Of a stretch of DNA of 64,000 bases, positions 10,013 to 37,451 are shown piece after piece. This stretch comes from Saccharopolyspora gregorii. Its GTDB lineage: Bacteria > Actinomycetota > Actinomycetes > Mycobacteriales > Pseudonocardiaceae. Location of the stretch: NCBI RefSeq assembly GCF_024734405.1, contig NZ_CP059556.1:2046001-2110000 (forward strand). The letters are read 5' to 3'. The notes beneath the pieces were generated by a model. That model did not search any database. It saw nothing but the letters and a program-made list of their open reading frames with translations, and was not told the origin of the DNA. Positions within the stretch are counted from its first letter, which is position 1. Each line of letters opens with the position of its first letter. The translations under genes and the position numbers were made by a program.

Positions 10013-10160
10013 GCGGAACCTCAGCGGTTCCCTCGCTGCGGGATCTTTTTCACAGGTGGCTCCGCCACATGCGAAAAAGCTGTCCTCGCGAGGAAACCGC
10101 TGAGAACCCGCTGGTGGTTCCGTTGGTCAGGTGGTCGGCAGGTCAGCGGCTTCGCCGCTG
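10013..10160 (+). repeat. Composite hairpin element, copy A
   Basis: Copy A of a four-member family. The long nested hairpin spans 10013-10111. Outer arms gcggaacctcagcgg and ccgctgagaacccgc are continued inward by ttccctcgc with gcgaggaaa; inner arms are ctttttc with gaaaaag; the apex is gtggctccgccac. A GGTGGT-containing spacer leads to a second hairpin, cagcggcttcgccgctg, at 10144-10160. It begins 28 nt after the rsmB stop and lies before the convergent anti-sigma gene. Confidence 0.9.
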
Positions 10161-10195
10161 AGGGGATCAAATGATCAACTGATTCTTCGTTGCGG

Positions 10196-10915
10196 TCAGG
10201 CCGCTTCGCGGTGGGCGGTCGGGCGGAGGTGCGGTGGGCCTTGCGGGGCTCGGGGAGCGCTGGAGGTGTCGTCCGCCGCGTGCGGGCCGTCGGCTGCGGT
10301 GCGGTCCGCGTCCGCCGGGTCGCCGCCGCCGGTGCGGTGCACCGCGAACAGCAGGCCCAGGCCGACCAGCAGCAGCGCGTGCGAGGCCACCCGCTCCACC
10401 GTCGCCGCCCCGATCACCAGGTCGTGCACCGAGAAACCGGCCAGCGCCGCCACGAACGCGCTCAGCACCGGCAGCACCCCCGCCGCCGTGCGATCGCGCC
10501 ACGCCGCCCACAGCAACCCCACGCCCAGCGCCAGGTTCCAGGCGGTGCTCTCGTTGAACAGGTGCGCCGCCATGCCCGGCCCGCCGTGCGCCGCGTGCCC
10601 GTGCATGCCGATCAGCCCCGACAGCTGACCGAGCGCGAGCAGGATCTGCGCCACCGCGGTCAGCGCCAACGCCCCGCGCAGCACCCCGCGCGTGCGGCGC
10701 GGACGTTCCGCCGCCGCCAGCACCGCCCCCGCCAAGTCCGGGGTGGGCGCCACCGCCCGCACCCGCAGGTTCCGGGTCAGCGCCCCCGCCTCGGCCTGGA
10801 AGGCCCGGCAGGCCGCGCACGTCTCCAGGTGGGCGTCGACCTCGGATTCCGGAGCCTCCGGGAGCTCCCCGTCCAGCAAGGCCGACACCGAGGTCCGGCA
10901 TCGTTCGCAGTTCAC
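10196..10915 (-). CDS. Membrane zinc-finger anti-sigma factor
   Basis: A 239-aa protein with an N-terminal zinc anti-sigma (zf-HC2) domain: Cys3 and Cys6, then His29-x3-Cys33-x2-Cys36. About five hydrophobic helices and a Pro/Asp-rich tail follow. It is divergent from, and 64 bp away from, a SigC-like sigma factor, so it probably holds that sigma factor at the membrane; the pairing is inference. GTG 10915 is chosen because the zinc domain starts there; GACAAT six nt upstream suggests a leaderless message. The longer upstream frame would run through the promoter region into the sigma gene. Confidence 0.82.
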   Translation of the reverse strand: MNCERCRTSVSALLDGELPEAPESEVDAHLETCAACRAFQAEAGALTRNLRVRAVAPTPDLAGAVLAAAERPRRTRGVLRGALALTAVAQILLALGQLSGLIGMHGHAAHGGPGMAAHLFNESTAWNLALGVGLLWAAWRDRTAAGVLPVLSAFVAALAGFSVHDLVIGAATVERVASHALLLVGLGLLFAVHRTGGGDPADADRTAADGPHAADDTSSAPRAPQGPPHLRPTAHREAA

Positions 10916-10921
10916 GGTCAG

Positions 10922-10971
10922 ATTGTCGGCCGAGCAGGGGGAGGAGTTCCCGGCGGGGCCTCGACTAGTCT
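10922..10971. promoter_or_regulatory. Divergent leaderless promoters of anti-sigma and sigC
   Basis: Plus strand: TAGTCT (10966-10971), 8 nt, then GTG 10980. Minus strand: GACAAT (10927-10922), 6 nt, then GTG 10915. TAGTCT overlaps the palindrome gactagtc (10963-10970). Neither start has a good ribosome-binding site. Confidence 0.45.
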
Positions 10972-10979
10972 CGACCACC

Positions 10980-11540
10980 GTGACGCACTCGGAGGCCGAA
11001 GACACCCGTGTGACCGAGCTCGCGCTGGCCGCCGGGAAAGGTGACCGCCGCGCCCTCGAAGAACTCGTCCGGGCCACCCAGCGCGACGTCTGGCGGTTCC
11101 TCGCGCACCTCGCGGGCGTGCCCGCGGCCGACGACCTCGCGCAAGAGACCTACCTGCGGGCGATGCGGGCCGTGCGCACCTTCCGCGGCTCCTCCTCCGC
11201 GCGCACCTGGCTGCTGGCCATCGCGCGCCGCGTCGTCGTCGACCAGATCCGCTCCGAACGCGCCCGGCCGCGCACCGTCACCTCCGATTGGGCGCAGGCG
11301 GCCGAGAGCGGTGGCCGCACCGGACGCGGCTTCGAAGAACTCGTCGAAGTCGGCGTGCTGCTCGACGGGCTCGACCCGGACCGGCGGGAAGCGCTCGTGC
11401 TCACCCAGGTCCTCGGGCTGACCTACCTGGAGGCCGCCGAGGTCAGCGGCTGCGAGCTCGGCACCGTCCGCTCGCGGGTCGCCCGCGCCCGCGAAGACCT
11501 CCTCACCCGCTCCCGCGGGCAGGACACCGGCACCGGCTGA
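10980..11540 (+). CDS. sigC: ECF sigma factor, SigC-like
   Basis: RNA polymerase sigma-70 family ECF factor, 186 aa. It has sigma region 2 (RDVWRFLAHLAG..ADDLAQETYLRAMRA, SSARTWLLAIARRVVVDQIRSERARPR) and region 4 (LVLTQVLGLTYLEAAEVSGCELGTVRSRVARARE). The whole length aligns by eye with my memory of M. tuberculosis SigC, including the start TELALAAGKGDRRALE. GTG 10980 is preceded by TAGTCT with an 8-nt spacer and no ribosome-binding site, so it is probably leaderless; GTG 11010 is an alternative. The adjacent zinc anti-sigma gene suggests post-translational control. Target promoters are unknown. Confidence 0.88.
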   Translation: MTHSEAEDTRVTELALAAGKGDRRALEELVRATQRDVWRFLAHLAGVPAADDLAQETYLRAMRAVRTFRGSSSARTWLLAIARRVVVDQIRSERARPRTVTSDWAQAAESGGRTGRGFEELVEVGVLLDGLDPDRREALVLTQVLGLTYLEAAEVSGCELGTVRSRVARAREDLLTRSRGQDTGTG

Positions 11541-11604
11541 GGGAACATCCCGGGACCGTCCCCGGTTGTGCGGGAAGATCCATCGACCAGCAGCGGAGGA
11601 CGAG

Positions 11605-12018
11605 ATGCCAGGCACACCGGTAGAGGTGCACCGCACCGCCGAGCACACCTTCACCGCCACCAACGGCCGCGGCGGGCAGGTCACCATCGGCCGCGACGGC
11701 GCCCCCGACGCGTTCACCCCCGGTGAGCTGCTGCTCGCCGCCATCGCCGGGTGCTCCGCCGTCACCAGCGAGAACCTGCTGGTGCGCCGCGCGGGTGCGG
11801 ACGCCGACATCGCGGTGCACGCCGACCGGGACAAGACCGACGCCGACCCGAACAAGTTTTCCGAGGTGCGGGTCCGCTTCGACGTGGACCTGAGCTCCGT
11901 CGCCGGCGCCGACCGGGCGAAGCTGCTCGACGCGGTGGAACGCGCCATCGAGCGGTACTGCACGGTCTCCCGCTCGGTCCAGGAGAGCACTCCTATTTCG
12001 TTGGAGCTGCCTCGGTGA
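11605..12018 (+). CDS. OsmC-family thiol peroxidase-like protein
   Basis: A 137-aa OsmC/Ohr superfamily protein. It has Glu41 in TPGELLLAAIAGCS and the two family cysteines, Cys50 and Cys119 (ERYCTVSRSV), expected for reduction of organic hydroperoxides. It is closer to the general OsmC group than to Ohr, so the substrate is uncertain. ATG 11605 follows GCGGAGGA by 4-5 nt. It lies 64 bp after sigC on the same strand and could be co-transcribed. The composite hairpin copy B begins 17 nt after its stop. Confidence 0.88.
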   Translation: MPGTPVEVHRTAEHTFTATNGRGGQVTIGRDGAPDAFTPGELLLAAIAGCSAVTSENLLVRRAGADADIAVHADRDKTDADPNKFSEVRVRFDVDLSSVAGADRAKLLDAVERAIERYCTVSRSVQESTPISLELPR

Positions 12019-12034
12019 CGGTGGTGGTCGGCTG

Positions 12035-12181
12035 GCGGAACCTCAGCGTCCTCCTCGCTGCGGGATCGTTTTCACCGGTGGCTCCGCCACAGGAGAAAAC
12101 GCTGTCCTCGCGAGGAGAACGCTGAGAACCCGCGGGTGGTCCGGCTGCGTGCGTGGTCGCCGCTCAGCGGCTTCGCCGCTG
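12035..12181 (+). repeat. Composite hairpin element, copy B
   Basis: Same architecture as copy A: long hairpin 12035-12133 (99 nt) and second hairpin cagcggcttcgccgctg at 12165-12181. The outer arm here is cagcgtcctcctcgc pairing with gcgaggagaacgctg; the inner arm is cgttttc with gaaaacg, different from copy A but still complementary. It starts 17 nt after the OsmC stop. The rest of the 351-bp gap (12182-12369) holds only the promoter of the next gene. Confidence 0.9.
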
Positions 12182-12323
12182 ACAGGATCAACGGCAACTG
12201 CCTCGTGGGGGCGGGGCGGCGGTGTGGGCCGTTCGGTCTGCTCGGGTGGGCGGGCAGGGCATTCGGGTCGGAGGAGCGCCGTGGTGGGGGGAGACTGTCG
12301 CGTGCTTCCGGGTTCGGCGTCGC

Positions 12324-12329
12324 TAGGGT
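12324..12329 (+). promoter_or_regulatory. -10 box TAGGGT upstream of the amino-acid permease
   Basis: TAGGGT lies 40 nt before TTG 12370. A strong ribosome-binding site, GAGGAGG (12356-12362), lies 7 nt before the start. Confidence 0.4.
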
Positions 12330-12369
12330 GCTGTGCGCGCGAGTGCGCGCCAGTCGAGGAGGCGGCGAG

Positions 12370-13773
12370 TTGGAACCAGCGGGAACGGACCCGGAGCGGG
12401 CTGCGGACGGCGGCGGGCTGCGCCGCGACCTGAGCGGCCGGCAGGTCGGCATGATCGCCATCGGCGGCGCGATCGGCACCGGGCTGTTCCTCGGCTCCGG
12501 ACTCGCCATCAACATCGCGGGCCCGGCCGTGATCATCGCCTACGCGGTGGCCGCCTTCGCCGCGCTCGCCCTGGCCTACGCGCTCGCCGAGATGGTCGTC
12601 GTGCACCCCGAGGCCGGCGGGTTCGGACCCATCGCGCAGCGCTACCTCGGCGGCCTCGCCGGATTCGTGCAGCGGTGGATCTACTGGGCCGCGCAGGTCG
12701 TCAACATCGGCAGCGAGGTCGTCGCCGCCGGGCTCTACGTGCAGTTCTGGTACCCGCAGCTGCCGCTGTGGCTGCCCGTCGTGGTGTTCTCGCTGGTCAT
12801 GCTGGCGATCAACGCCTCGGCCGTGCGGTTCTTCGGCGAGTTCGAGTACTGGTTCGCGCTGATCAAGGTCGTCACGATCGTCGTGTTCGTGCTGCTCGGC
12901 ATCACCTACATCGTGTTCGGCCTGCCCGGCCGCCCCGCCACCGGCGTCGGAGCGCTCACCGAGCACGACGGGTTCCTGCCGAACGGGATCGGTGCGGTGT
13001 GGCTGGCGCTGACCGTGGTCACCTTCTCCTACCTGGGCACCGAGGCCGTCGCCGTCACCGCCTCCGAGTCGCGGAACCCGGGCCGCGACGTGCCGCGGGC
13101 GGCGCGGAACATGGTGCTGCGGCTCGGGTTGTTCTACGTGCTGGGCATGCTGGTGGTCGTCTCGATCATGCCGTGGAACCAGGTGTCCACCGAGGAGGAC
13201 GTGACGCAGAGCCCGTTCGTGGCGCTGTTCGCGACCGCCGGGATCCCCGCCGCCGCGGGCGTCATGAACTTCGTGGTGCTCACCGCGGCGCTGTCCGCGA
13301 TGAACACGAACCTGTACGTGACGGCGCGGATGACCTACTCGCTCGCCCAGGACGGCTACGCGCCGAAGTGGTTCGCCGGGCTGAGCCGCCACGGCGCGCC
13401 GCAGCGGGCGCTGCTGCTGTCCGCGGGCGGGCTGGTGCTGGCGGCGGGCATCTCGGTGTTCGCCGAGTCCACCGCGTTCCCGCTGCTGCTGGGGCTGGCG
13501 CTGTTCGGCGCGCTGATCACCTGGCTGCTCATCTTCGCCAGCCACCTGGCGTTCCGGCGGCACCGGGTCGCCGCGGGGCTGCCGGATTCGCCGGTGCGGC
13601 TGGCGGGCGCACCGGTGACGACGGTGCTGGCGATGCTGTTCGTGGGGGCGGTGCTGCTGACGACGCCGTTCACCGAGCAGTTCGACACCGCGTGGAAGGC
13701 GGGGGTGCCGTTCCTCGCCCTGCTCTGCGTCGCCTACTACGTCCTGCGCCGCCGGGCCGCCGGGCGCTCCTGA
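12370..13773 (+). CDS. APC-family amino-acid permease
   Basis: Inner-membrane amino-acid transporter, 467 aa with about 12 hydrophobic segments. The first helix holds the APC signature MIAIGGAIGTGLFLGSG, and PEAGGFG and SYLGTEAVAVTASESRNPGRDVP follow, as in the AnsP/GabP/ProY group. The specific amino acid cannot be read from sequence. I chose TTG 12370 because GAGGAGG sits 7 nt upstream and the protein begins with a short hydrophilic tail; no nearby ATG is in frame before the first helix. It stands alone between copy B and rpe. Confidence 0.9.
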   Translation: MEPAGTDPERAADGGGLRRDLSGRQVGMIAIGGAIGTGLFLGSGLAINIAGPAVIIAYAVAAFAALALAYALAEMVVVHPEAGGFGPIAQRYLGGLAGFVQRWIYWAAQVVNIGSEVVAAGLYVQFWYPQLPLWLPVVVFSLVMLAINASAVRFFGEFEYWFALIKVVTIVVFVLLGITYIVFGLPGRPATGVGALTEHDGFLPNGIGAVWLALTVVTFSYLGTEAVAVTASESRNPGRDVPRAARNMVLRLGLFYVLGMLVVVSIMPWNQVSTEEDVTQSPFVALFATAGIPAAAGVMNFVVLTAALSAMNTNLYVTARMTYSLAQDGYAPKWFAGLSRHGAPQRALLLSAGGLVLAAGISVFAESTAFPLLLGLALFGALITWLLIFASHLAFRRHRVAAGLPDSPVRLAGAPVTTVLAMLFVGAVLLTTPFTEQFDTAWKAGVPFLALLCVAYYVLRRRAAGRS

Positions 13774-13868
13774 GCCGCGGCCGGGGCACCGCCCGCCCGT
13801 TCACCTGGGCGCGCGGGCGGTTCACCTCGTCGGGTCGACGCGGGCGCGGGCGGTGGGCGGGTGAGATT

Positions 13869-13874
13869 TACACT
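13869..13874 (+). promoter_or_regulatory. -10 box TACACT, leaderless start of rpe
   Basis: TACACT is followed by 7 nt and GTG 13882. No ribosome-binding site is present. This leaves no room for an FMN riboswitch between promoter and rpe. Confidence 0.45.
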
Positions 13875-13881
13875 CCCGCAT

Positions 13882-14562
13882 GTGTCGAACCAGCCGATGA
13901 TCGCGCCCTCCATCCTGTCCGCGGACTTCGCCCGCCTCGCCACCGAGCTCGACGCCGTCAAGGGCGCCGACTGGGTGCACGTCGACGTGATGGACGCGCA
14001 CTTCGTGCCGAACCTGACCCTCGGGCTCCCGGTCGTCGAGTCGCTGCTCAAGGCCACCGACATCCCGCTGGACTGCCACCTGATGATCGAGGACCCGGAC
14101 CGCTGGGCGATCGGCTACGCCGAAGCGGGCGCGCACAACGTCACCGTGCACGCCGAAGCCGCCCAGGACCCGGTGAAGATCGCCGCGGACCTGCGCGCGG
14201 CCGGCGCCAAGGCCGGGCTGTCGATCAAGCCGGGCACGCCGTTCGACCAGTACGTCGAGGTGCTCAAGCACTACGACACGCTGCTGGTGATGTCCGTCGA
14301 GCCCGGTTTCGGCGGCCAGAAGTTCATCACCGAGGTGCTGGAGAAGGCCCGCGCCGCCCGCAACCTCGTCGACACCGGGCACCTGAACCTCATCGTGGAG
14401 ATCGACGGCGGCATCAACGCCGACACCATCGAGCAGGCCGCGGAAGCCGGGGTCGACTGCTTCGTCGCCGGTTCCGCCGTCTACGGCGCCGACGACCCGG
14501 CCCGCGCGGTGGAGGCGCTGCGCGCCCAGGCCGCCCCGAACTTCGCGCACGCCCGGAAGTGA
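13882..14562 (+). CDS. rpe: Ribulose-phosphate 3-epimerase
   Basis: Interconverts ribulose 5-phosphate and xylulose 5-phosphate; 226 aa. Family motifs: [10 protein letters not shown] at the start, [38 protein letters not shown] and EIDGGIN, which carry the metal ligands and phosphate-binding loop. GTG 13882 gives a typical N-terminus and lies 7 nt after TACACT. It is the first gene of the riboflavin block, and ribulose 5-phosphate is also the substrate of RibB. Its stop overlaps the ribD start in GTGA. Confidence 0.96.
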
Positions 14563-15590
14563 CCGCCGCGACCGCGGACCCGGTGCGCGCCGCGATGTTC
14601 GCGGCGCTCGCCGCGAGCGAACGCGTCCGCGGCAGCACCAGCCCGAACCCGCCGGTGGGCTGCGTGGTGCTCGACGCCGACGGCGCCGTCGCCGGGACCG
14701 GCGCGACCCAGCCGCCCGGCGGGCCGCACGCCGAGGTGATGGCGCTGCGCGCAGCCGGGGACCGCGCCCGCGGCGGCACCGCCGTGGTGACCCTGGAGCC
14801 GTGCGCGCACACCGGCCGCACCGCGCCGTGCACCACGGCGCTGCTCGCGGCGGGAGTGGCGCGGGTGGTGCACGCCGTGGCCGATCCGAACCCGAAGGCC
14901 GCCGGCGGCGCCGAAGTGCTGCGCGCCGCCGGGGTCCGCGTCGAATCCGGCCTGCTCGGCGAGCAGATCGCGCGCGGCCCGCTGCGGGCCTGGTTGCACT
15001 TCGCCCGCACCGGCCGCCCGCACGTCACCTGGAAGTACGCGGCGAGCCTGGACGGCCGGTCGGCCGCCGCCGACGGCACCAGCAAGTGGATCAGCTCGGC
15101 GACCTCGCGCGCCGAGGTGCACGAGCTGCGCGGCAAGGTCGACGCGATCCTCGCCGGCACCGGCACCGTCCTCGCCGACGACCCGCAGCTGACCGCCCGC
15201 GAAGCCGACGGCGGCCTGCGCCCGCACCAGCCGCTGCGCGTCGTCGTCGGCCACCGCGAGGTGCCCGCCGGGGCGCGCGTCTTCGACGACTCGGCCGCCA
15301 CGATCCGGCTGCCCGGCGGCGACCCGGCGGCCGCGCTGGCGGAGCTCGGGCGGCGCGGCGTGGTGGACGTGCTGCTGGAGGGCGGGCCGACGCTGGCCGG
15401 GGCGTTCGTCGCCGCCGGGTGCGTCGACCGGGTGCTGGCCTACCTGGCCCCCGCGCTGCTCGGCGCCGGTCCCGCCGCGCTCGGCGACGCCGGGGTGGCG
15501 AGCGTCTCCCAAGCATGGTGGTGGGACATCGAAGAGACCACGATGAGCGGACCGGACGTGCGCGTCAGCGCCGTGCCCACCGGCCGCTGA
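14559..15590 (+). CDS. ribD: Bifunctional riboflavin deaminase/reductase RibD
   Basis: Diaminohydroxyphosphoribosylaminopyrimidine deaminase and 5-amino-6-(5-phosphoribosylamino)uracil reductase, 343 aa. The N-terminal deaminase has the zinc site His57-x-Glu59 (PHAEV) and Cys82/Cys91 ([12 protein letters not shown]). The C-terminal reductase domain begins near residue 150 ([25 protein letters not shown]) and includes [15 protein letters not shown]. It starts with GTG overlapping the rpe stop, so translation is probably coupled. ribE follows after 11 nt. Confidence 0.95.
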
Positions 15591-15601
15591 GGAGGAAGAG
15601 C

Positions 15602-16213
15602 ATGTTCACCGGCATCGTCGAGGAGCTCGGCACGGTCACGTCCGTCGAGGAGGACGGCGACGGGGTGCGGCTGACCGTCGAAGGACCGCTGGTGACCTCC
15701 GACGCGAAGCACGGCGACTCGATCGCCGTGAACGGCGTGTGCCTGACCGTGGTGGACTCCGGCGCCGGCCGGTTCACCGTGGACGTGGTGGCCGAGACCG
15801 TGCGCCGCTCCGCGATCCGGCACATCACCGCGGGCGACCGGGTGAACCTGGAGCGCGCGATGGCGCTCGGTGACCGGCTCGGCGGGCACATCGTGCAGGG
15901 CCACGTGGACGGCACGGCCGTGCTGCTGGAGTCCGACGGCGACCTCACCCGCTTCGAGCTGCCCGCCGGGTTGTCGCACTACCTGGTGGAGAAGGGCTCG
16001 ATCACGGTGGACGGGGTATCGCTCACCGTGGTCGGAGCGGGACGCACCGAGTTCAGCGTCGCGCTGATTCCCACCACGCGGGAACTCACCACTCTGGGGG
16101 TGCGCCGACCGGGTGAAGAGGTCAACATCGAGGTGGACGTGCTGGCCAAGCACCTGGAACGGCTCGCCGCAGCGCAGCTCGACCGGCCCCGTACCGGAGC
16201 GGACGGGTCCTGA
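15602..16213 (+). CDS. ribE: Riboflavin synthase alpha chain
   Basis: Dismutates two lumazine molecules to riboflavin; 203 aa. It has the two-fold repeated beta-barrel: [23 protein letters not shown] and [11 protein letters not shown] in the first half and related [12 protein letters not shown] and [11 protein letters not shown] in the second. The ribosome-binding site is GAGGAAGAG just upstream of ATG. It lies between ribD and ribBA in the same transcription direction. Confidence 0.96.
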
Positions 16214-16352
16214 CCGCCCGATCGGCGGCCGGAGCCCGGCAGGCGAGAGGACAATGACGGTGCCGGGAACGCACAGCCGCCCGGCAGCCCGAACCGAGGG
16301 CGGGCGCACCGGTGGTGCGCCGCAGCCCCAGAGCGAAAGAGCACGGGACACG

Positions 16353-18115
<1,763 letters not shown>

Positions 18116-18170
18116 CCCGCGTCCGGAGGGCTGCCGCGGGGTGCGCCGCGCTACCGGGCAAACTGGACGC

Positions 18171-18698
18171 ATGCAGTCAGCTGAGGCTCGGGACGAGGTG
18201 GCCGGTCCGGAACCGGCGGGAGGTGGGGACGCGGTGGAGTCCTCGGACGCGGTCCGGCCCGTGGTGGTGCGGCCGATCAAGATCCGCCGGGTGGTGATCC
18301 CGGTGGCCGTGGTGCTGGTGGTCGTGTTCGCCGTGGTGGCGGTGCTGCTGCGCAACACCCCGACCGGCGTGTACTTCCGGGTGTCGGACCAGATCGCGAT
18401 GGCCGGGCTGGGCGTGCTGCTGGCCTGCGGGGCGCTGCTGCTGGCGCGGCCGCGGCTGCGCGCCGACCTGTCCGGGCTGGAGGTGCGCAACGTGATCGGC
18501 ACCCAGCGCTACTCGTGGGACGAGGTGCAGGCCGTCAGCTTCCCGGACGGCGCCGCGTGGGCCCGGTTGGAGCTGCCGCAGGACGAGTACGCCTCGGTGA
18601 TGGCGATCCAGTCCACCGACGGCGCGCACGCCGTGCAGGCCATGCGGGACCTGCGCGAACTCCGCCGCGAGGTGGAGGCCCGCCGCGGCGGGGAGTGA
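18171..18698 (+). CDS. Membrane protein with bacterial PH domain
   Basis: A 175-aa protein with an acidic N-terminal tail, two hydrophobic segments (VVIPVAVVLVVVFAVVAVLL and MAGLGVLLACGALLLA) and a C-terminal bacterial PH-like domain (RYSWDEVQAVSFPDGAAWARLEL). A homologue sits at the same place, downstream of ribH, in mycobacteria (Rv1417 in M. tuberculosis, from memory). Function unknown; a link with riboflavin or flavins rests only on synteny. A leaderless start is likely: CAAACT, 6 nt, ATG. Confidence 0.82.
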   Translation: MQSAEARDEVAGPEPAGGGDAVESSDAVRPVVVRPIKIRRVVIPVAVVLVVVFAVVAVLLRNTPTGVYFRVSDQIAMAGLGVLLACGALLLARPRLRADLSGLEVRNVIGTQRYSWDEVQAVSFPDGAAWARLELPQDEYASVMAIQSTDGAHAVQAMRDLRELRREVEARRGGE

Positions 18699-18710
18699 CG
18701 TGGTGCGAAA

Positions 18711-18746
18711 ACGGGTGCCCGGGAGCGATCGCTGCCGGGCACCCGT
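18711..18746. terminator. Bidirectional terminator between convergent genes
   Basis: Perfect 12-bp arms acgggtgcccgg (18711-18722) and ccgggcacccgt (18735-18746) with a 12-nt loop, between the PH-domain gene and the convergent GlsB-like gene. Confidence 0.75.
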
Positions 18747-18762
18747 TCGTCGAGCCCCTGCG

Positions 18763-19023: not shown

Positions 19024-19178
19024 GGTGTCCTCCTTCCGATTCGCGCGCCGGTCTGCGGCGCGCTGCGCACACGCTCATCGACCGGGTTCCCCGCAGTGGC
19101 GTCGATCAATCGCGATCTCCACCACCGAGGCACCCGATCAAGCGTTCCGGAGGCTACGCCGTTACCCGCAGTGGCTGA

Positions 19179-22901: not shown

Positions 22902-22909
22902 GCGCCCCG

Positions 22910-28534: not shown

Positions 28535-28538
28535 CGGC

Positions 28539-28571
28539 CGGGCGGCCCCTCCGGTGCGGAGGGGCCGCCCG
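28539..28571. terminator. Strong 15-bp terminator hairpin
   Basis: cgggcggcccctccg (28539-28553), loop gtg, cggaggggccgcccg (28557-28571): a perfect 15-bp stem. It lies between convergent whiA and the GH16 gene. Confidence 0.85.
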
Positions 28572-28579
28572 CGCGCGGA

Positions 28580-29548
28580 TCACCGGTTGTAGACGGCGAT
28601 GTAGTCGACGAGCATCGGGTGTCCCGGCTCCGTCGCCTCGGTCGGCGTGGTGATCCCGGAGTTCTTGTCCGGGAACTGGCCGCCGACCGCGACGTTGAGC
28701 AGCACGAAGTACCCGTCGTGCGAGGTCATGTTCTGCCACGCCGCCGGGTCCACATCGGACTCGCGCACCGAGTGGTACTGCTGCCCGTCCACGTACCAGC
28801 GCAGCTCCTCGACCTCGCCGCTGCGGTCCCACTCGAACCGGTAGGTGTGGAACGCCTCCTGGCAGGTGCTGTCCGGGCACTCCCGGCTCGCGGCCAGGCC
28901 GTCGGTCTCGTCGCAGGAACCGCCGGGGGAGACGTCGCAGTGCAGCACGCCGTACACGCGGTTCTCGGCGTTGACGTTCTCCATGATGTCGAACTCGCCG
29001 ATGGTGGGCCAGCTCCACAGGTCCTCGCGGTACGGCGAGCCCAGCGCCCAGAACGCGGGCCAGTAGCCCAGCGCCCCGTCCGCGGCCACGTCCGGCATCC
29101 GGATGCGGCCCTCGATCCGCAGCACGCCGCCCTCGGCGGCCTTGAAGTCGCCGCGCCGCGTCTCGATCCGCGACGAGGTCCAGGCCCCGGACTCGTCCCG
29201 GCGCGGAGTGATCACCAGGTTGCCGTCGCCGTCCTGCTGCAGGTTCTCCGGATCGGCGGTGTAGGTCTGCACCTCGCCGGTGCCCCAGCCGTCCGGTCCG
29301 CCCGGGTAGCCGCGGCCGGTGTCGACCTGCCAGTCGTCGCCGGGCGCGGCACCCGCCGCGCCGGTGAAGTCGTCGCCGAAGGTCAGCGTCCAGCCCTCGT
29401 CCGGCGGCGGGACGTCGGCCCCGGCCGGGGTGGTGACCAGACCGGTCAGGCCGATCCCCGCGGCGAGCGCGGCCGCGGCCAGCCGGCCGCGCCCGCGCGG
29501 AGCCGTCCCCGTCGTCGTCCGGTTCCGCGATCTTCCGGGCAGCGCCAT
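28580..29548 (-). CDS. Secreted GH16 endo-beta-glucanase
   Basis: Extracellular family 16 glycoside hydrolase, 322 aa, probably a beta-1,3- or mixed-linkage glucanase. It has a basic N-terminus, a hydrophobic core (about residues 23-39) and likely cleavage after AGA (residue 44). The catalytic motif is GEFDIMEN (Glu185, Asp187, Glu190), preceded by GYWPAFWALG. Single-domain, with no carbohydrate-binding module. The ribosome-binding site GGGAGGA precedes ATG 29548. The promoter contains a LacI-type operator (29676-29689), so induction by glucan-derived oligosaccharides is likely. Confidence 0.92.
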   Translation of the reverse strand: MALPGRSRNRTTTGTAPRGRGRLAAAALAAGIGLTGLVTTPAGADVPPPDEGWTLTFGDDFTGAAGAAPGDDWQVDTGRGYPGGPDGWGTGEVQTYTADPENLQQDGDGNLVITPRRDESGAWTSSRIETRRGDFKAAEGGVLRIEGRIRMPDVAADGALGYWPAFWALGSPYREDLWSWPTIGEFDIMENVNAENRVYGVLHCDVSPGGSCDETDGLAASRECPDSTCQEAFHTYRFEWDRSGEVEELRWYVDGQQYHSVRESDVDPAAWQNMTSHDGYFVLLNVAVGGQFPDKNSGITTPTEATEPGHPMLVDYIAVYNR

Positions 29549-29670
29549 CGCGCAGTCCTCCCTCGGGTCGGGCCCGGCCGGGCGCCGGGCCTCGCCGGCC
29601 GCCGCGCTCCGCCCGGCCCCGCCGCGGAGGCGGTACCGGTGCAGAGACGTCGATCACGACCGACCAGCAC

Positions 29671-29699
29671 ATTCTTGAGAGCGCTCTCACGGCGGTCAA
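29671..29699 (-). promoter_or_regulatory. GH16 promoter with LacI-type operator in the spacer
   Basis: On the minus strand: -35 TTGACC (29699-29694), a 17-nt spacer, then -10 AAGAAT (29676-29671). The 14-bp perfect palindrome tgagagcgctctca (29676-29689) fills the spacer. It matches the LacI-family consensus around a central CG and closely resembles the CebR operator tgggagcgctccca of streptomycetes. Binding should block polymerase. No LacI-family gene is in the window. Confidence 0.75.
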
Positions 29700-29791
29700 C
29701 CGGCGGATGCAGCACGTAGGGGCACCCGAAAGGCAGACATCGCGGCACGAGCGGGTGATCATCGGTCGCGCCGGGGCGAGCTGCGCCATGA

Positions 29792-30925
<1,134 letters not shown>

Positions 30926-30953
30926 CGGGCTCGTTCTGCCTGCGGGTCGGGTA

Positions 30954-31100
30954 GCGGAACCTCAGTCGTCTTCTCGCTGCGGGATCTTTTTCCCAAGTGG
31001 CTCCGCCACGAGGGAAAAAGCCGTCCTCGCGAGAAGACGACTGAGAACCCGCCGGTGGTCGGCTTGCTCTGGTGGTCGTTGCTCAGCGGCTTCGCCGCTG
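30954..31100 (+). repeat. Composite hairpin element, copy C
   Basis: Long hairpin 30954-31052 (99 nt) and second hairpin cagcggcttcgccgctg at 31084-31100. The outer arm reads cagtcgtcttctcgc with gcgagaagacgactg, fully complementary and distinct from copies A and B. The inner arm is ctttttccc with gggaaaaag, again matched. It starts 29 nt after the gap stop, inside the 314-bp gap-pgk interval. Confidence 0.9.
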
Positions 31101-31183
31101 ACAGGACGATGATCGGCCTGGCCGGGCACGTTTCGCCTGCCGGCTGCACGAACCCGAATCGGGTGGCTGTCGGAAGCTTGTTG

Positions 31184-31217
31184 AAGGTCCCGCATGAGCT
31201 GTGCTCGTGCGGGCCTT
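31184..31217 (+). terminator. Hairpin with T-rich tail between gap and pgk
   Basis: aaggtcccgcatgagc (31184-31199) pairs with gctcgtgcgggcctt (31203-31217), with one bulged T and one G-T pair and a 3-nt loop, followed by ctctttc. It ends 12 nt before the pgk ribosome-binding site (31229-31234), so it could be an intrinsic terminator or an attenuator. Confidence 0.55.
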
Positions 31218-31239
31218 CTCTTTCATGTGAGGAGCAGAC

Positions 31240-32442
31240 GTGAAGAACCTCGACGATCTGCTGTCCGAAGGAGTTCGGGGGCGTCGCGTGCTGGTGCGCG
31301 CCGACCTCAACGTTCCGCTGGACGGCGACGAGATCACCGACGACGGCCGGGTGCGGGCCTCGCTGCCGACGATCGAGAAGCTGACCGGGGCCGGTGCGCG
31401 CGTCGTCGTCACCGCCCACCTCGGCCGCCCGAAGGGCGAGCCGGACCCGCGGTTCTCGCTGGTACCGGTGGCGCGCAGGCTCGGTGAGCTGCTGGGCGCC
31501 GAAGTGGCGGTGGCCGGTGACGTGACCGGGGACTCCGCCCGCTCCGTGGTGGAGGGGCTGACCGACGGTTCGGTGGCGCTGCTGGAGAACGTGCGGTTCG
31601 ACCCGCGCGAGACCAGCAAGGACGACGCCGAGCGCGGCGCGTTCGCCCGCGAGCTGGCCGAGCTGGTCGGCGACGGCGCGGCGTTCGTCTCCGACGGCTT
31701 CGGCGTGGTGCACCGCAAGCAGGCCTCCGTCTACGACGTGGCGAAGCTGCTGCCGGGCTACGCGGGCGGACTGGTGCTGTCCGAAGTGGACGTGCTGCGC
31801 ACCCTCGTCGGCGACCCGCGGCGGCCCTACGTGGTGGTGCTCGGCGGTTCCAAGGTCTCCGACAAGTTCGGCGTGATCGAAGCGCTGCTGCCGAAGGTCG
31901 ACAAGCTGCTCATCGGCGGCGGCATGGCCTACACCTTCCTGGCCGCGCAGGGCCACCAGGTCGGTTCCTCGCTGCTGCAGAACGACCAGCTCGATGCCAC
32001 CCGCGACCTGCTCGCGAAGCACGGCGACAAGCTGGTGCTGCCCGTCGACGTGGTCGTCGCCGACGCGTTCGCCGCCGACGCGAACACGCGGGTCGTCGAG
32101 GCCGACGCCATCCCCGAGGGGTGGATGGGCCTGGACATCGGGCCGCGCAGCGTCGAGCTGTTCGCCGACGCCCTGCGCACCGCGGGCACCGTGTTCTGGA
32201 ACGGCCCCGCCGGCGTCTTCGAGTTCGAGGCGTTCGCCGCGGGCACCCGGGGCGTCGCGCAGGCCATCGTCGACTCCGACGCGTTCAGCGTCGTCGGTGG
32301 CGGCGACTCCGCGGCCGCGGTCCGCACCCTCGGCCTGCCCGAGGACGGGTTCTCGCACATCTCCACCGGTGGCGGCGCTTCGCTGGAATTCCTCGAAGGC
32401 AAGGACCTGCCGGGTGTCGCGGTCCTCGAAGGCGAAGCCTGA
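31240..32442 (+). CDS. pgk: Phosphoglycerate kinase
   Basis: Transfers phosphate from 1,3-bisphosphoglycerate to ADP; 400 aa. Motifs: [75 protein letters not shown] and [20 protein letters not shown] 31240 follows GAGGAG by 5 nt. tpiA follows after 56 nt, forming the pgk-tpiA part of the glycolytic cluster. Confidence 0.97.
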
Positions 32443-32498
32443 CCGCCCGAACCGTCGAGCGTGGTGACTAGCGGCTCCGCCGCAGGAAAGGACTCCGC

Positions 32499-33284
32499 AT
32501 GGCCAGGACTCCGCTGATCGCGGGCAACTGGAAGATGAACCTGAACCACCTGGAAGCGATCGCCCTGGTGCAGAAGGTCGCCTTCGCGCTGCCCGAGAAG
32601 TACTTCGCGAAGGTCGAGGTGGCGGTCATCCCGCCGTTCACCGACATCCGGAGCGTGCAGACCCTGATCGACGGCGACAAGCTGCTGCTCAAGCACGGCG
32701 CGCAGGACGTCTCCGAGCACGACTCCGGCGCCTACACCGGTGACGTGTCCGGCCCGATGCTCGCCAAGCTCGGGTGCAGCTACGTGGTCGTCGGGCACTC
32801 CGAGCGCCGCGAGTACCACGCGGAGACCGACGAGGTCGTCGGCCGCAAGGTGCGGGCCACGCTGAAGAACGGCATGTCGCCGATCCTCTGCGTCGGCGAG
32901 CAGCTCGACGTCCGCGAATCCGGCGGCCACGTCGAGCACTGCACCACCCAGCTGATCAACGCGCTGAAGGGCCTCAAGGCGGAGCAGGTCCGCTCCGTCG
33001 TGGTCGCCTACGAACCGGTGTGGGCCATCGGCACCGGCAAGGTCGCCACCGCCGACGACGCGCAGGAGGTGTGCGCGGCGCTGCGCGCGGCGCTGGCCGA
33101 GAAGTACGGCAAGGAGATCGCCGACGAGGTGCGGGTGCTCTACGGCGGCTCGGTCAAGTCCAGCAACATCGGCGAGCTGATCGCGCAGACCGACGTGGAC
33201 GGCGCGCTCGTCGGCGGTGCGAGCCTCAACGGCGACGAGTTCACCAAGCTCAGCGCGATGGCGGCGGGCGGCCCGCTGCCCTGA
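32499..33284 (+). CDS. tpiA: Triosephosphate isomerase
   Basis: Interconverts dihydroxyacetone phosphate and glyceraldehyde 3-phosphate; 261 aa. Motifs: [26 protein letters not shown] (catalytic His), [17 protein letters not shown] (catalytic Glu) and [14 protein letters not shown] with GALVGGASL. The site AGGAAAGG precedes ATG. A small gcggctccgccgc hairpin (32471-32483) lies directly before that site. A strong terminator follows. Confidence 0.97.
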
Positions 33285-33317
33285 TGCTCCGGCCGGTCCG
33301 CACGGGCCGGCCCGGCG

Positions 33318-33354
33318 ACCGCCCCGGCCGCGTGACCTCGTCGGCCGGGGCGGT
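33318..33354 (+). terminator. Terminator after tpiA
   Basis: Perfect 13-bp arms accgccccggccg (33318-33330) and cggccggggcggt (33342-33354), 11-nt loop, separating pgk-tpiA from secG. Confidence 0.75.
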
Positions 33355-33423
33355 GCACCCACCGACCGCGGTGGAACACCGGCGCTAAGGCGGACGGCGG
33401 TCCACCGGACGAACGCCAACCGG

Positions 33424-33429
33424 TACTCT
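33424..33429 (+). promoter_or_regulatory. -10 box TACTCT for secG
   Basis: TACTCT lies 32 nt before the secG ATG, just after the tpiA terminator. A GAGG site at 33453-33456 precedes the start. Confidence 0.35.
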
Positions 33430-33461
33430 CGGTGGCGAACCGCTGTGTGAACGAGGACGTG

Positions 33462-33695
33462 ATGAATCTAATCCTGCAGATCGGCCTGATCCTGACGAGC
33501 GTGCTGCTGGTGCTGCTGGTCCTGCTGCACCGGGCCAAGGGCGGCGGGCTCTCCTCGCTCTTCGGCGGTGGCATGCAGTCGAGCCTGTCGGGTTCCAGCG
33601 TGGCGGAGAAGAACCTCGACCGGATCACGATCGTGGTCATCGCGGTCTGGGTGATCTGCATCATCGGTACCGGGCTGCTGATCAAGATCGGTTGA
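33462..33695 (+). CDS. secG: Preprotein translocase subunit SecG
   Basis: Small accessory subunit of the SecYEG channel, 77 aa with two hydrophobic helices (LILQIGLILTSVLLVLLVLL and ITIVVIAVWVICIIGTGLLI) joined by the conserved cytosolic loop HRAKGGGLSSLFGGGMQSSLSGSSVAEKNLDR. ATG 33462 has GAGGACG upstream; GTG 33459 is equally in frame. Its place after tpiA is conserved in actinobacteria. Confidence 0.93.
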   Translation: MNLILQIGLILTSVLLVLLVLLHRAKGGGLSSLFGGGMQSSLSGSSVAEKNLDRITIVVIAVWVICIIGTGLLIKIG

Positions 33696-33778
33696 CGGTC
33701 CGGCGAGCTGGCAGCGGTTGACCAACAGCGGCCGGCCGGTGCGGCCGGTCCTCCGTGCGGCTTGGTGGGTGAGAGTGC

Positions 33779-34120
33779 ATGACTGGCGGTAACGCGATCC
33801 GAGGCACGCGCGTCGGCGCGGGCCCGATGGGCGAGTCGGAGCGGGGCGAGTCGGCACCGCGCAGGCGGGTCGACTACTGGTGCGCCAACGGCCACCACAC
33901 GCGGCCGTTCTTCTCGATGGACGCCGAGGTGCCGGACCAGTGGGACTGCCCCCGCTGCGGGCTGCCCGCGGGCCAGGACGAGCAGAACCCGCCGGAGGCG
34001 CGGCGCAACGAGCCGTACAAGAGCCACTTGGCGTACGTCAAGGAGCGGCGCAGCGACTCCGACGGCATGGCCATCCTCGAAGAGGCGTTGACGAAGCTGA
34101 AGAAGCGCCAGGGGCGCTGA
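33779..34120 (+). CDS. rbpA: RNA polymerase-binding protein RbpA
   Basis: Actinobacterial transcription activator that binds the principal sigma factor and RNA polymerase; 113 aa. It shows AIRGTRVGAGPMGES (N-terminal tail), a core with zinc-type cysteines (WCANGH, WDCPRCGLPAG), a basic linker (RRNEPYKSHLAYVKERRS) and a C-terminal sigma-interacting helix (DGMAILEEALTKLKKRQGR). It keeps the cysteines found in Streptomyces RbpA but lost in mycobacteria. It lies 83 bp after secG and ends in a strong hairpin. Confidence 0.95.
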   Translation: MTGGNAIRGTRVGAGPMGESERGESAPRRRVDYWCANGHHTRPFFSMDAEVPDQWDCPRCGLPAGQDEQNPPEARRNEPYKSHLAYVKERRSDSDGMAILEEALTKLKKRQGR

Positions 34121-34136
34121 CGGCGGGTCCACCGCG

Positions 34137-34164
34137 GGCGGGCCGGAGACCTCTCCGGCCCGCC
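34137..34164 (+). terminator. Terminator after rbpA
   Basis: Perfect 13-bp arms ggcgggccggaga (34137-34149) and tctccggcccgcc (34152-34164) around cc; a few inner pairs must open to form the loop. Confidence 0.75.
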
Positions 34165-34277
34165 TTCGCGTTGTTCGGCGTCCTCCGGACGAGGGGACAT
34201 CGAGTTGTGGGCCGTCGCGGCGCGGTCGTAGCTTGGGGCGCACCGCAGCACGGCGTCGTCGCAGGAAGCAGGCCCGC

Positions 34278-34619
34278 ATGGTGTCGTCCGAGAACAGCCG
34301 TCCCGCGCAGTCGTGGGTGCCGGTGCCGGGGGTGTCGGACCTCGCTCCGGGGGAGGTCGTGACCACCAAGATCGGTGGGGAATTCATCGCGGTGTGCAAT
34401 GCGGGCGGCGTCGTGCGCGCGTTCCGCGACGAATGCCCGCAGTGCGCGCTGCCCATCGGCGGCGGCCGGTTGCTGGGGGATCTGCTGTGGTGCGCCGGGT
34501 GCGCGGAACCATTCGACGTGTCCGCCGGGGGAGTCGGCAGGAAACGTGCTCGGTTCCGGCTCGCCGCTAGGTCACTGACCGTTTCCGAAGGTTCCGCGCG
34601 CATTGCTCTATCCGCGTGA
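34278..34619 (+). CDS. Rieske-fold-like protein with four cysteines
   Basis: A 113-aa protein that aligns by eye to small Rieske [2Fe-2S] proteins, but the two histidine ligands are replaced. The usual CxH...CxxH becomes Cys53-Pro-Gln-Cys56 and Cys72-Ala-Gly-Cys75, with the fold markers GVVRAFRDECPQCALPIGGGRLLGDLLWCAGCAEPFD kept in order. The ligand set suggests a rubredoxin-like Fe, a [2Fe-2S] or a Zn site rather than a true Rieske cluster. ATG 34278 has AGGAAG upstream. A HypB-like GTPase gene starts 140 bp downstream. Function unknown. Confidence 0.7.
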   Translation: MVSSENSRPAQSWVPVPGVSDLAPGEVVTTKIGGEFIAVCNAGGVVRAFRDECPQCALPIGGGRLLGDLLWCAGCAEPFDVSAGGVGRKRARFRLAARSLTVSEGSARIALSA

Positions 34620-34759
34620 TGTGCGTGCGGAGCGCGTTTCGCGGGCCATTCCGGTATGGAGAACCGAACCGTTCTCTGCGACGATGAGATGATCTTTGCC
34701 GCGTCTGGACGGATCAGCCGGAATCCGCCCGGACGCCGCAGCTGGAGGTGTGAGAGACC

Positions 34760-35512
34760 ATGCGCGGTGGGTACGCAGCAGCGGGCCGCGCCGGGGTCCG
34801 GGTGTCGGGTCCGGACTTCCCCGAGCCGTGCGGCCACGAAGGACCGTCCGCTTCGGACGGTGCGGTCCCCCGGCAGCGGATCTCCGACGCGCTGGCGGAG
34901 CGGACGCGGAACTCGTTGGCACGGCGCAGGATTCTCGCGCTGAACCTGATGAGCTCGCCCGGCTCGGGGAAGACCACCCTCCTGGAGCGGACGCTGCGCG
35001 AGCTCGGCTCGACCGTGTCGATCTCGGCGATAGAGGGGGACCAGGAGACCCACCTGGACGCCGACCGGCTGCGGGCCGCGGGCTGCCGCGTGGTGCAGAT
35101 CAACACCGGTTCCGGCGGGCACCTCGACGCCGACATGGTCGACGAAGGACTTCGGTCGCTGCAACCGGCCGGGCGGTCGCTGGTGTTCATCGAGAACATC
35201 GGGAATCTCGCCGCGCCCGCGTTGTTCGACCTCGGCGAGCACCACCGGGTGCTGATCGCCTCGGTCACCGAAGGCGAGGACAAACCGCTGAAATATCCGC
35301 ACGTATTCCGCAGCACCGATCTGGTGCTGCTGAACAAGGTGGATCTGCTGCCGCACCTCGATTTCGACGTGGACCGATTCATCTCGCACGCGCAGCGCAT
35401 CAATCCGCGGATCCGCGTGTTGCGGTTGTCCGCGAAACGCGGCGAGGGGATCGGCGAATGGTGCGGCTGGCTGCGCGCGCACCACGACGGGACCGCGCCC
35501 ATCCCCGCGTGA
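34760..35512 (+). CDS. hypB: HypB-like GTPase lacking G-domain metal ligands
   Basis: P-loop GTPase of the hydrogenase nickel-insertion family, 250 aa. Walker A is SSPGSGKTT (Lys71); [16 protein letters not shown] and [15 protein letters not shown] are typical HypB. Two metal-binding cysteines of the E. coli G-domain (Cys166 in GKGCHLDA and Cys198 in NLVCPA) are Gly120 (GSGGHLDA) and Ala152 (NLAAPA) here; the His is kept. The N-terminus has only one Cys-x-His (Cys24, His26) and no His-rich tract. No hydrogenase, hypA or urease gene is in the window. Probably a neo-functionalised or relic metallochaperone. Confidence 0.82.
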
Positions 35513-35663
35513 GCGCTGTGGCGTTGCTCGCCCGGACCCGCTCCGCGCGCTGATCGGCGGATACGCTCGCCGGATCATGCTCCGGGCGCGGTCGCCCGCG
35601 TCGGCTCGGCGCCCGGGAAGGTCCGGCGCCGCGGGCGCCGGTGGCCCAGCCGAGGAGACTGTG

Positions 35664-36137
35664 ATGGACCTGTCGACCGCCGACCTCGCGGACCGCGAAG
35701 GACCGGCCATCCGCAGCTGCGACGTGCAGTTCCGGCAGTACGGGGGGCGGGAGGTGTTCGCCGGGCGGATCCGCACGGTCACCTGCTTCCAGGACAACGC
35801 GCTGCTCAAGAAGGTGCTCTCCGAGCCGGGGGAGGGCCAGGTGCTGGTGATCGACGGAGCCGGGTCGGTGCACACCGCGCTCGTCGGTGACCTGATCGCG
35901 GAGCTCGGCCGCTCGAACGGCTGGACCGGCATCGTGGTGAACGGCGCCGTGCGCGACACCGCGGTGCTGGCCGGGATGGAGTTCGGCGTGAAGGCGCTCG
36001 GCTCGAACCCGCGCAAGAGCGGCAAGACCGGCGACGGCGTCGTCGACGAGCCGGTGGAGCTCGGCGGGGTGCGGTTCGTGCCCGGCGAATACCTGGTGAG
36101 CGACCACGACGGCGTCGTCGTCCTCGCCGAACCGTGA
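35664..36137 (+). CDS. RraA family protein (RNase E inhibitor / HMG aldolase fold)
   Basis: A 157-aa protein of the RraA/4-hydroxy-4-methyl-2-oxoglutarate aldolase family. The segments [25 protein letters not shown] and [25 protein letters not shown] are characteristic; the Arg-Asp pair and a downstream Asp/Glu suit the metal-dependent aldolase site. RNase regulation and aldolase activity cannot be told apart from sequence. ATG 35664 sits 5 nt after GAGGAG; GTG 35661 is adjacent. It stands 151 bp after hypB and ends in a GTGAACGG-type hairpin. Confidence 0.88.
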
Positions 36138-36145
36138 TCCGGCCC

Positions 36146-36189
36146 AGGTGAACGGCCCGTTCGCCCGGCCGGACACGGGCCGTTCACCT
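36146..36189 (+). terminator. GTGAACGG-family hairpin after the RraA gene
   Basis: Perfect 15-bp arms aggtgaacggcccgt (36146-36160) and acgggccgttcacct (36175-36189), 14-nt loop. Same family as 1894 and 49510 and the 4773 tandem array. Confidence 0.75.
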
Positions 36190-36344
36190 CGGCGGACGAC
36201 CGGATCGCGCGCGGACCACCCCGGATGTCCGGTTCGGTTACCTGCCGGACATCTGCGCCGTGGTAGTTGACCGGCCGGACACGCGCGCGTAGCAGAGCTG
36301 ACGGTTCCCGCTCCTAACGTCCGAGGAGTGGGAAGCGTTGCCGG

Positions 36345-37280
36345 ATGAGCGCCGGTCCAGACACGCGGGAGCCGCGGACCCGGCGTGCGGTGCACGCCCT
36401 GACCGGCCGCCACGACGTCGAGTACGAGCAGGCGGTGCCGCCGCGGCTGGACCGCACCAGGCAGGCCGCCGTGCACGACTGCCTGTTCCTCACCGGTGAG
36501 TGCGACGGCTGGTTCGCGACGGTGCTGCCCGAGGCCCTCGCCGAGCTCGTCGACACCGGGAGCGCCGCCGACTGCGCGGCCGTCGCGCACACCACCGGTG
36601 TCGCGCCCGCCGTCCGCGCCGTCGCCGCCGGGGCCGTCGGCTACGAGCGGCTGCCCGCCACCTTCCAGGCGCTGCAACCGCACCACCTGCGGGAACCCGA
36701 GGTGCTCGGCGCGGTCGTCGCGGCGAAGCGGGTGCTGCACCGCGGCCCGGCGATGCCCGTCGACCGGGACGTGTTCGAGGACGTCGAGCGGTGGTCGGAG
36801 GCCGCCGCGGCCACGGGCGTCCCGCTGCCGGTGGACTTCACCTGGATGCGGGAGCGGGTGCGCCTGATCGGCGCGGCGCTGCGGGCGGCCGGCCGGGACT
36901 CGCGGCCCTGCCACCGGGACGGCAGCCCGTCGAACGTGCTGGTCGGCCCCGGCCGGGAGGTGCGGCTGGTCGACTTCGACTTCGCGGGCAACGCGGACCC
37001 GCACCACGACCTCGCGGCGATGCTGGTGGAGACCTGCCAGCTCGACGACGAGTGGCGCCGGGCCGCGGAGGTCGTCGACGGCAGACCCGATCAGCAGCGC
37101 CTCGCCCGCTACCGGCTCAACGCCATCGCCGACGACCTGGCGGTGGGGACGTGGGCGCTGCTGGCCGGGGCGCGCGTGCACCGGCCCGCCGGGTTCCCCG
37201 GGTACGGCCAGTGGCGGTTGCTGCGCTGCCGCTACGCGTTGCGGCACCGGCACTTCGACACCTGGCTCCGGCGGGTTTGA
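36345..37280 (+). CDS. APH-fold phosphotransferase
   Basis: Aminoglycoside phosphotransferase/choline kinase-fold protein, 311 aa. The catalytic loop reads CHRDGSPSNVLVG (His190, Asp192, Asn197) and the metal-binding segment LVDFDFAGNADPHHDLA (Asp210). The N-lobe is poorly conserved and I do not see a clear ATP-binding lysine. The substrate is unknown; small-molecule or sugar-alcohol kinase are options, and resistance is not supported by context. The start at ATG 36345 has only a weak site (GGAAG). Composite hairpin copy D begins 28 nt after the stop. Confidence 0.72.
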   Translation: MSAGPDTREPRTRRAVHALTGRHDVEYEQAVPPRLDRTRQAAVHDCLFLTGECDGWFATVLPEALAELVDTGSAADCAAVAHTTGVAPAVRAVAAGAVGYERLPATFQALQPHHLREPEVLGAVVAAKRVLHRGPAMPVDRDVFEDVERWSEAAAATGVPLPVDFTWMRERVRLIGAALRAAGRDSRPCHRDGSPSNVLVGPGREVRLVDFDFAGNADPHHDLAAMLVETCQLDDEWRRAAEVVDGRPDQQRLARYRLNAIADDLAVGTWALLAGARVHRPAGFPGYGQWRLLRCRYALRHRHFDTWLRRV

Positions 37281-37307
37281 CGGCTCTTGCTGATCGGGGG
37301 TGGGGTG

Positions 37308-37451
37308 GCGGAACCTCAGCGTCCTCGCTGCGGGATCGTTTTCACCGGTGGCTCCGCCACAGGAGAAAACGCCGTCCTCGCGAGGAGTGAGCTGAGAACC
37401 CGCGGGTGGTCCTGTTGCGTGCGTGGTTGCTGCTCAGCGGCTTTGCCGCTG
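37308..37451 (+). repeat. Composite hairpin element, copy D
   Basis: Long hairpin 37308-37403 (96 nt) and second hairpin cagcggctttgccgctg at 37435-37451. The outer 5' arm is 3 nt shorter than in other copies (cagcgtcctcgc with gcgaggagtgagctg), so pairing is weaker here. The inner arm cgttttc/gaaaacg and apex gtggctccgccac match copy B. The second hairpin has a C-to-T change in the loop only. Confidence 0.9.

Follow-up and report, generated by a model that had tools for sequence, protein, structure and literature searches.

We examined a 64,000-nucleotide (nt) window of the Saccharopolyspora gregorii chromosome (contig NZ_CP059556.1, positions 2,046,001 to 2,110,000) that carries four copies of a composite hairpin element. 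An earlier sequence-only reading had picked out these copies, and all four were found at the positions it gave, on the plus strand. Its names for the genes that precede them were borne out by Pfam, which returned RsmB, OsmC, GAPDH and an APH-type kinase for copies 1 to 4.

Copy 1 stands behind rsmB (stop codon at 9983–9985) and opens with a lead, 9986–10012, that is conserved in the family alignment. A large nested hairpin of 99 nt, H1, follows at 10013–10111, then a spacer with two GGTGGT motifs (10112–10143) and a small hairpin, H2 (10144–10160); the covariance model (CM) described below matches 10007–10166 at 173.9 bits. Copy 2 lies behind the osmC stop codon (12016–12018), with H1 at 12035–12133, H2 at 12165–12181 and a CM score of 179.2 bits. 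Copy 3 sits between gap and pgk: the lead (30926–30953) begins directly behind the gap stop codon (30923–30925), H1 spans 30954–31052, H2 spans 31084–31100, and a tail delimited with the family tail profile (31101–31150) covers the region of a weak third hairpin (183.8 bits). This copy places the element inside the gap–pgk gene cluster (window 30926–31239). Copy 4 follows the stop codon of the APH-type kinase gene (37278–37280), with an H1 of 96 nt at 37308–37403, H2 at 37435–37451 and 160.4 bits.

The window copies thus share a lead of 16–28 nt, an H1 of 99 nt (96 nt in copy 4), a spacer of 31–33 nt and an H2 of 17 nt. Counted from the final nucleotide of each stop codon (9985, 12018, 30925 and 37280), 27, 16, 28 and 27 nt come before the G of GCGG at the start of H1, in agreement with the earlier figure of a start 17–29 nt after the stop. 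Four islands of 10–13 nt, described as constant, are indeed identical in all four copies, and the 17-nt hairpin recurs in each, with one loop change in copy 4. Other parts of the description held less fully. Of the two GGTGGT motifs, the second is CGTGGT in copies 2 and 4; copy 4 has also lost 3 nt from its 5′ arm, so that its outer arms are incompletely paired. The length of ~145 bp proved too short, as a ~25-nt lead precedes this stretch and a ~40-nt tail follows it, weakly conserved and with a third small hairpin. Scanned singly with two mismatches allowed, three islands occur at near-chance frequency (11 versus 10.7, 14 versus 10.1 and 8 versus 8.4 in shuffles) and H2 occurs 10 times versus 1.4. 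The combination of islands, with CM scores of 160–184 bits, is far above chance.

Covariance-model searches of the genome and its relatives, which the sequence-only reading had proposed, revealed many further copies. We used one model built from 33 copies of the S. gregorii genome (R1) and one cross-genus model (R2); copy 3 served as query for DNA searches. On the 6.34-Mb S. gregorii chromosome (genome G000), R1 gave at least 143 matches at E≤1e-3, a lower bound for which the best 150 of 10,242 first-look candidates were scored; 122 exceed 90 bits, and the other 21 are omitted from the context counts that follow. Each of the six genus members covered by the search carries the element, and three of them reach the limit of 150 scored candidates, so that their counts are again lower bounds. 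G003, G004 and G005 are the genus members richest in copies beside G000. In the wider taxonomic family, which we take to be Pseudonocardiaceae, at least 37 of 150 genomes match R1 (E≤1e-6) and at least 41 of 150, in 13 of 46 genera, match R2 (E≤1e-5). A class-wide draw of 394 genomes returned only the S. gregorii genome and one other member of the family. Both surveys used stricter Infernal filters and scored 7–20 candidates per genome, so their genome counts are lower bounds. A genome that carries the element may have a single copy or well over a hundred. Among named genomes, a scan for the exact pattern gave 44 stretches, all in Saccharopolyspora sp. NFXS83, and searches of phage, plasmid and viral contigs gave no match. 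Rfam had no family at its gathering score in the window, one chance-level match (E 0.87) in two S. gregorii loci and none at E≤0.5 in four loci of other genera. No description of such an element was found in the open-access literature, nor did the accessible part of PMC3610266 offer a lead on it.

The element shows a strong preference in its position relative to genes. We trained a codon-usage gene caller on the window and ran it on the flanks of all 143 S. gregorii copies. None of the 122 copies lies inside a predicted gene, and 103 lie behind a co-oriented gene; the position behind a plus-strand stop codon, said to be invariable, is so for the four window copies and is a strong tendency genome-wide. 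The genome-wide orientation bias on which the sequence-only reading had staked its proposal is therefore present. By neighbouring genes, 71 copies are convergent, 32 tandem sense, 14 tandem antisense and 5 divergent. For the 95 copies no more than 60 nt from a stop codon, the interquartile range of the distance from stop to model is 25.5–34 nt. At tandem sense sites, 31 of 32 copies begin within 40 nt of the stop, although 15–491 nt precede the next gene; the median excess over 25 nt is 6.5, against 55 under uniform placement and a minimum of 21.5 in 10,000 runs. The stop codon itself was considered as a target sequence and rejected, as host stops are TGA in 93 of 95 cases versus 188 of 205 for genes far from elements, no clear difference by counts. 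Starts of reverse genes also fall near the left end of the element; the caller tends to over-extend starts, so these were not used.

The same placement recurs outside S. gregorii. In G003, where context was read for a sample of 58 copies that are mostly the best of a longer list, a co-oriented gene precedes 43 of the 57 copies tested, with a median of 36 nt to GCGG and a tandem sense:antisense ratio of 19:10 (p=0.14 alone). Across 12 other genera, 44 of 48 loci (14 of them from one genome) lie behind a co-oriented gene, 40 of these no more than 44 nt from the stop, and the tandem sense:antisense ratio is 26:4.

Comparison of orthologous sites showed gain and loss of the element between species. 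Copy 3 occupies the same position in G003, G004 and G005 and is absent from G001 and G002. The site of copy 2 is filled in G004 and empty in G003, G005 and G002. Copy 1 is also present at the orthologous site in G004, with a longer unrelated spacer in its place in G003, G005 and G002. The site of copy 4 is empty in G003 and G005, where the opposing stop codons are 7 and 3 nt apart (judged by eye), and the G004 counterpart is a ~200-nt spacer with no model match; some of these absences, at copies 1 and 4, are hence not clean empty sites. At three loci the element points in opposite directions in sister species: G003 7250 versus G005 7943, G003 18845 and G005 19277 versus G004 21229, and G005 24290 versus G004 26057 (joined-stretch coordinates). 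Either an in-place flip or repeated insertion would produce this arrangement. Two insertions in G003 (L192) altered the host C-terminus, with a new TAG stop at the element edge. Gains and losses between sister species indicate that the element is or was mobile, and the empty sites support the earlier suggestion of a mobile repeat akin to a repetitive extragenic palindrome (REP) or a miniature inverted-repeat transposable element (MITE).

In one genus with one to three copies per genome, the element is retained in place. It lies behind the same gatB-like gene, so called because the C-terminus resembles that of gatB, in four of six species; in two species a copy stands behind a second gene. Its arms differ between these species and mostly still pair, those of G149 being partly broken.

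Pairing is conserved across genera even where the arms diverge. RNAalifold predicted 49 pairs from 33 S. gregorii copies, 10 of them with changes on both sides; scored on a named structure, 99.1% of cells in S. gregorii copies are paired, with covariation of 0.153 versus 0.047 in shuffles. We then aligned 31 sequences from 12 genera with MAFFT and scored them on the structure derived from the S. gregorii copies. Both-side changes occur in 29 of 47 pairs, in 225 cells versus 78.8 in shuffles, and covariation is 0.344 versus 0.101 (s.d. 0.008) in shuffles and at most 0.109 in slid controls. The claim that structure persists through changes on both sides is thereby upheld across genera. Conserved islands lie at both feet and around an asymmetric GGGATC/GCTGTCC motif, and two sense G–U pairs are kept in 30 and 28 of the 31 sequences. 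The innermost hairpin does not align across genera: each of its five pairs is unpaired in 15 to 26 of the 31 sequences.

To follow how the arms change, we counted pairs in the 95 of 122 S. gregorii copies whose H1 is 99 nt, omitting 24 of other H1 length and three that were not delimited. Over 37 pairs with a Watson–Crick consensus there are 3422 Watson–Crick cells, 248 of which are complete swaps, and the mismatched cells comprise 18 G–U, 40 A–C and 35 others. The rarity of one-sided G–U steps fits a palindrome maintained at the DNA level equally well, and a reading of the covariation as the mark of an RNA is not supported. No H1 pair is broken in 53 of the 95 copies. At least one is broken in the other 42; copies with broken pairing, which the sequence-only reading had taken to speak against it, do therefore exist, and we read them as decaying.

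Closely related copies are informative about the steps involved. Of 28 copy pairs that differ by two bases, eight differ at both partners of one pair, versus 0.84 expected from column variability (the p-value of 1e-6 is optimistic, since the copy pairs depend on one another). Clean swaps account for seven of the eight, and four of these are transversions with no wobble step; the eighth is left mismatched. One-sided steps occur as well: among 14 copy pairs one base apart, seven have their single change in a paired column. In the copies at the gap locus, four pairs distinguish the arms of S. gregorii from those of G003, each changed on both sides; one pair, again changed on both sides, distinguishes G003 from G004, and G005 has one further one-sided change. 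Such paired changes would fit an event in which one arm templates the other, with strong selection against mispaired copies as the alternative. An element that inserts in sense at translation stops and whose arms are rewritten by such one-event base-pair swaps is a reading that we consider unlikely; complementarity would then result from copying instead of gradual selection for compensating changes.

Its hairpin arms vary yet keep matching, which gives it the look of an unnamed mobile element. We favour, with chances that we judge to be evenly balanced, a mobile structured repeat of the 3′ untranslated region (UTR): non-coding, non-autonomous and ~200–250 nt long, made up of the ~25-nt lead, the 99-nt nested hairpin, a G-rich spacer, the 17-nt hairpin and a variable tail. 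It settles directly behind stop codons, mostly in sense, and would be moved by a protein that acts in trans on the folded strand. Its sense position behind the stop would probably make it the 3′ UTR of the host gene, a harmless site at which it would be kept, and its hairpins would probably end or protect the host message. Transcription of the element, termination or stabilisation of the transcript and the trans-acting protein are steps that we infer; a function at mRNA ends appears likely. Two observations bear on it. Counted from the element's right end onwards, further perfect hairpins of ≥9 bp lie behind 6 of 103 sense copies, against 31 of 206 stops that have no element (Fisher p=0.02; convergent class alone p=0.01), and tandem sites with a short gap before the next gene are under-represented (5 of 32 versus 89 of 216, p=0.006). 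Together, the hairpin deficit and the avoidance of short gaps fit transcript ends without proving termination, and give indirect support to the terminator or 3′-end role that was among the earlier proposals.

Several results weigh against this interpretation. The hairpin deficit is moderate, with p=0.08 in the tandem class alone; the hairpin level near elements equals that inside the upstream coding sequence (6.6% of 122), and the deficit could reflect insertion at terminators rather than their replacement. In the profile of the S. gregorii copies no U-tract follows H2, where GACAGGA or a similar sequence stands. There is no co-oriented gene upstream of 19 of the 122 copies, and among the mismatches sense G–U is not favoured over A–C. 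Among the empty-site comparisons listed, no clean target duplication was seen. A mobiliser was not found, and G000, G003, G004 and G005 have no match to the Y1 transposase family (PF01797), for which the same search gave one match in G001, two in G002 and, as a positive control, matches in 5 of 14 named genomes.

The strongest competitor is a purely selfish repeat of the MITE or REP kind, whose pairing serves its own movement and which has no host function; we think it somewhat unlikely. The position behind stops would then reflect insertion where harm is least, or where the mobiliser finds hairpins. Turnover is high, with only 6 of the 58 fetched G003 copies sharing a position with the 143 S. 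gregorii copies and one of the six reversed in direction, and the opposed loci in sister species are as expected of such a repeat. So are inverted doublets: at L129 (G000:4180260–4180603) two full copies stand tail to tail, 26 nt apart, and no further inverted pair within 1 kb was found among the 143 matches. Elements that use the lagging-strand template show agreement with fork direction. Here, on the assumption that replication starts at coordinate 0 and ends about halfway along the genome, element direction matches presumed fork movement in 89 of 122 copies; at convergent sites, where the neighbouring genes offer no cue, it does so in 50 of 71. The figure for genes far from elements is 172 of 286, and among the copies listed for other genomes it is 55 of 79 in G003, 14 of 16 in G056 and 21 of 26 in G018. 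An insertion sequence (IS) that lands in the repeat, described below, also suits a selfish repeat. A dead parasite, however, would not be expected to stay at the same gene with re-paired arms in genomes with one to three copies, and harmlessness alone fails to explain a spacing of ~30 nt at tandem sites that offer up to 491 nt.

Alternatively, the element may be a dedicated 3′-end RNA element of the host (a terminator, an RNase III site or an exonuclease block) for which movement is secondary. Sense placement behind stops throughout the family, long conserved pairing, the two kept sense G–U pairs, the scarcity of other hairpins and the copies kept in place all point this way. Against it stand the 109 of 150 family genomes with no match under strict filters, the very unequal copy number, the high turnover within the genus, the missing U-tract and the conserved islands, which a plain terminator would not need. 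We regard this explanation as quite improbable. That the element is a REP of known kind, moved by a REP-associated tyrosine (RAYT, Y1) transposase, is very improbable: despite a GTRG motif directly at the hairpin foot, inverted doublets, sites downstream of genes and use as an IS target, features that REPs share in the accessible part of PMC3733652, the hairpin is clearly longer than a REP, and Y1 is absent where copies abound, which led us to reject RAYT as mobiliser.

The ends of the element were analysed by flank profiles and a terminal-motif test on 107 copies, omitting 15 that score between 90 and 140 bits (the downstream profile drops 5 more). At the hairpin foot, T occupies position −2 in 101 of 107 copies and A or G occupies −1 in all 107, nearly always giving GTGG; a GTAG foot is common in other genera. 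A right-end motif (≥14 letters) is present in 16 of 107 copies and a left-end motif in 6 of 107, versus 0.3% and 0.2% in shuffles, with motifs derived from the same copies. Complementarity between a copy's own ends is slightly above the cross-copy level, and the inverted left-end motif recurs downstream in 12 of 122 copies at scattered distances, two of the 12 belonging to a neighbouring copy. As a general feature, terminal inverted repeats are weakly indicated by these tests.

The IS that enters the element, which we take from resemblance to be IS481-like, lies inside the conserved GGTAGC hexamer of the element and shows a 6-bp duplication in four examined G004 copies whose arms differ (L299, L304, L310 and L316). 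In G001, three of six matches adjoin the same IS site (L297, L303 and L309; four of the six were examined), and one G001 and one G002 IS copy lie at related hexamers elsewhere. Its transposase gene abuts the hairpin, which made it a candidate autonomous partner; we rejected this, since its ends and the GGTAGC duplication show insertion into the element. Separately, tandem ~20-bp units such as GGCACGGCCTTCGGCCGCGA lie near whole or truncated elements at L243 and L299, perhaps a second repeat family.

If the mobile 3′-UTR reading is right, a bacterial family carries an unnamed structured 3′-UTR element that moves between gene ends. The more than one hundred natural copies in a single genome would serve to test how mRNA ends in GC-rich actinomycetes are determined by 3′ structures. 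With so many similar copies, the maintenance of palindromes can be tested directly, and the missing mobiliser gives a search something concrete to look for.

Compared with known systems, the element resembles intrinsic terminators in having a hairpin behind the stop codon, where a transcription unit ends, and differs from them in its lack of a U-tract, its long conserved islands and its mobile copies. It resembles the GTAG-tagged REPs and REPINs, as presented in the accessible part of PMC3733652, in being a GTRG-footed palindrome with many intergenic copies, inverted pairs, sites mostly downstream of genes and use as an IS target. REPs there measure 20–40 bp with stems of 5–13 bp, in contrast to the 99 nt and second hairpin found here in copy-rich genomes without a Y1 transposase; in the main text of that paper the words Actinobacter-, Streptomyces, Frankia, Amycolatopsis and Saccharopolyspora are absent. 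Repeated landing of an IS in a repeat is also known from the REP-targeting insertion sequences in the accessible part of PMC1525189, although here the IS is IS481-like, with a GGTAGC hexamer and a 6-bp duplication. Like BOX, RUP and SPRITE repeats (PMC3049150, in the part accessible) and, from general knowledge, ERIC, it is structured, intergenic, probably co-transcribed and presumably moved in trans, and it is unlike them in its sense position ~30 nt behind stops in 12 other genera. No sequence relation to these repeats was seen, and no comparison was aimed at them. In its working the element is thus like REP, ERIC and BOX, it falls outside the REP/RAYT system by its size and by the transposase, and what distinguishes it is its steady position behind the stop codon.

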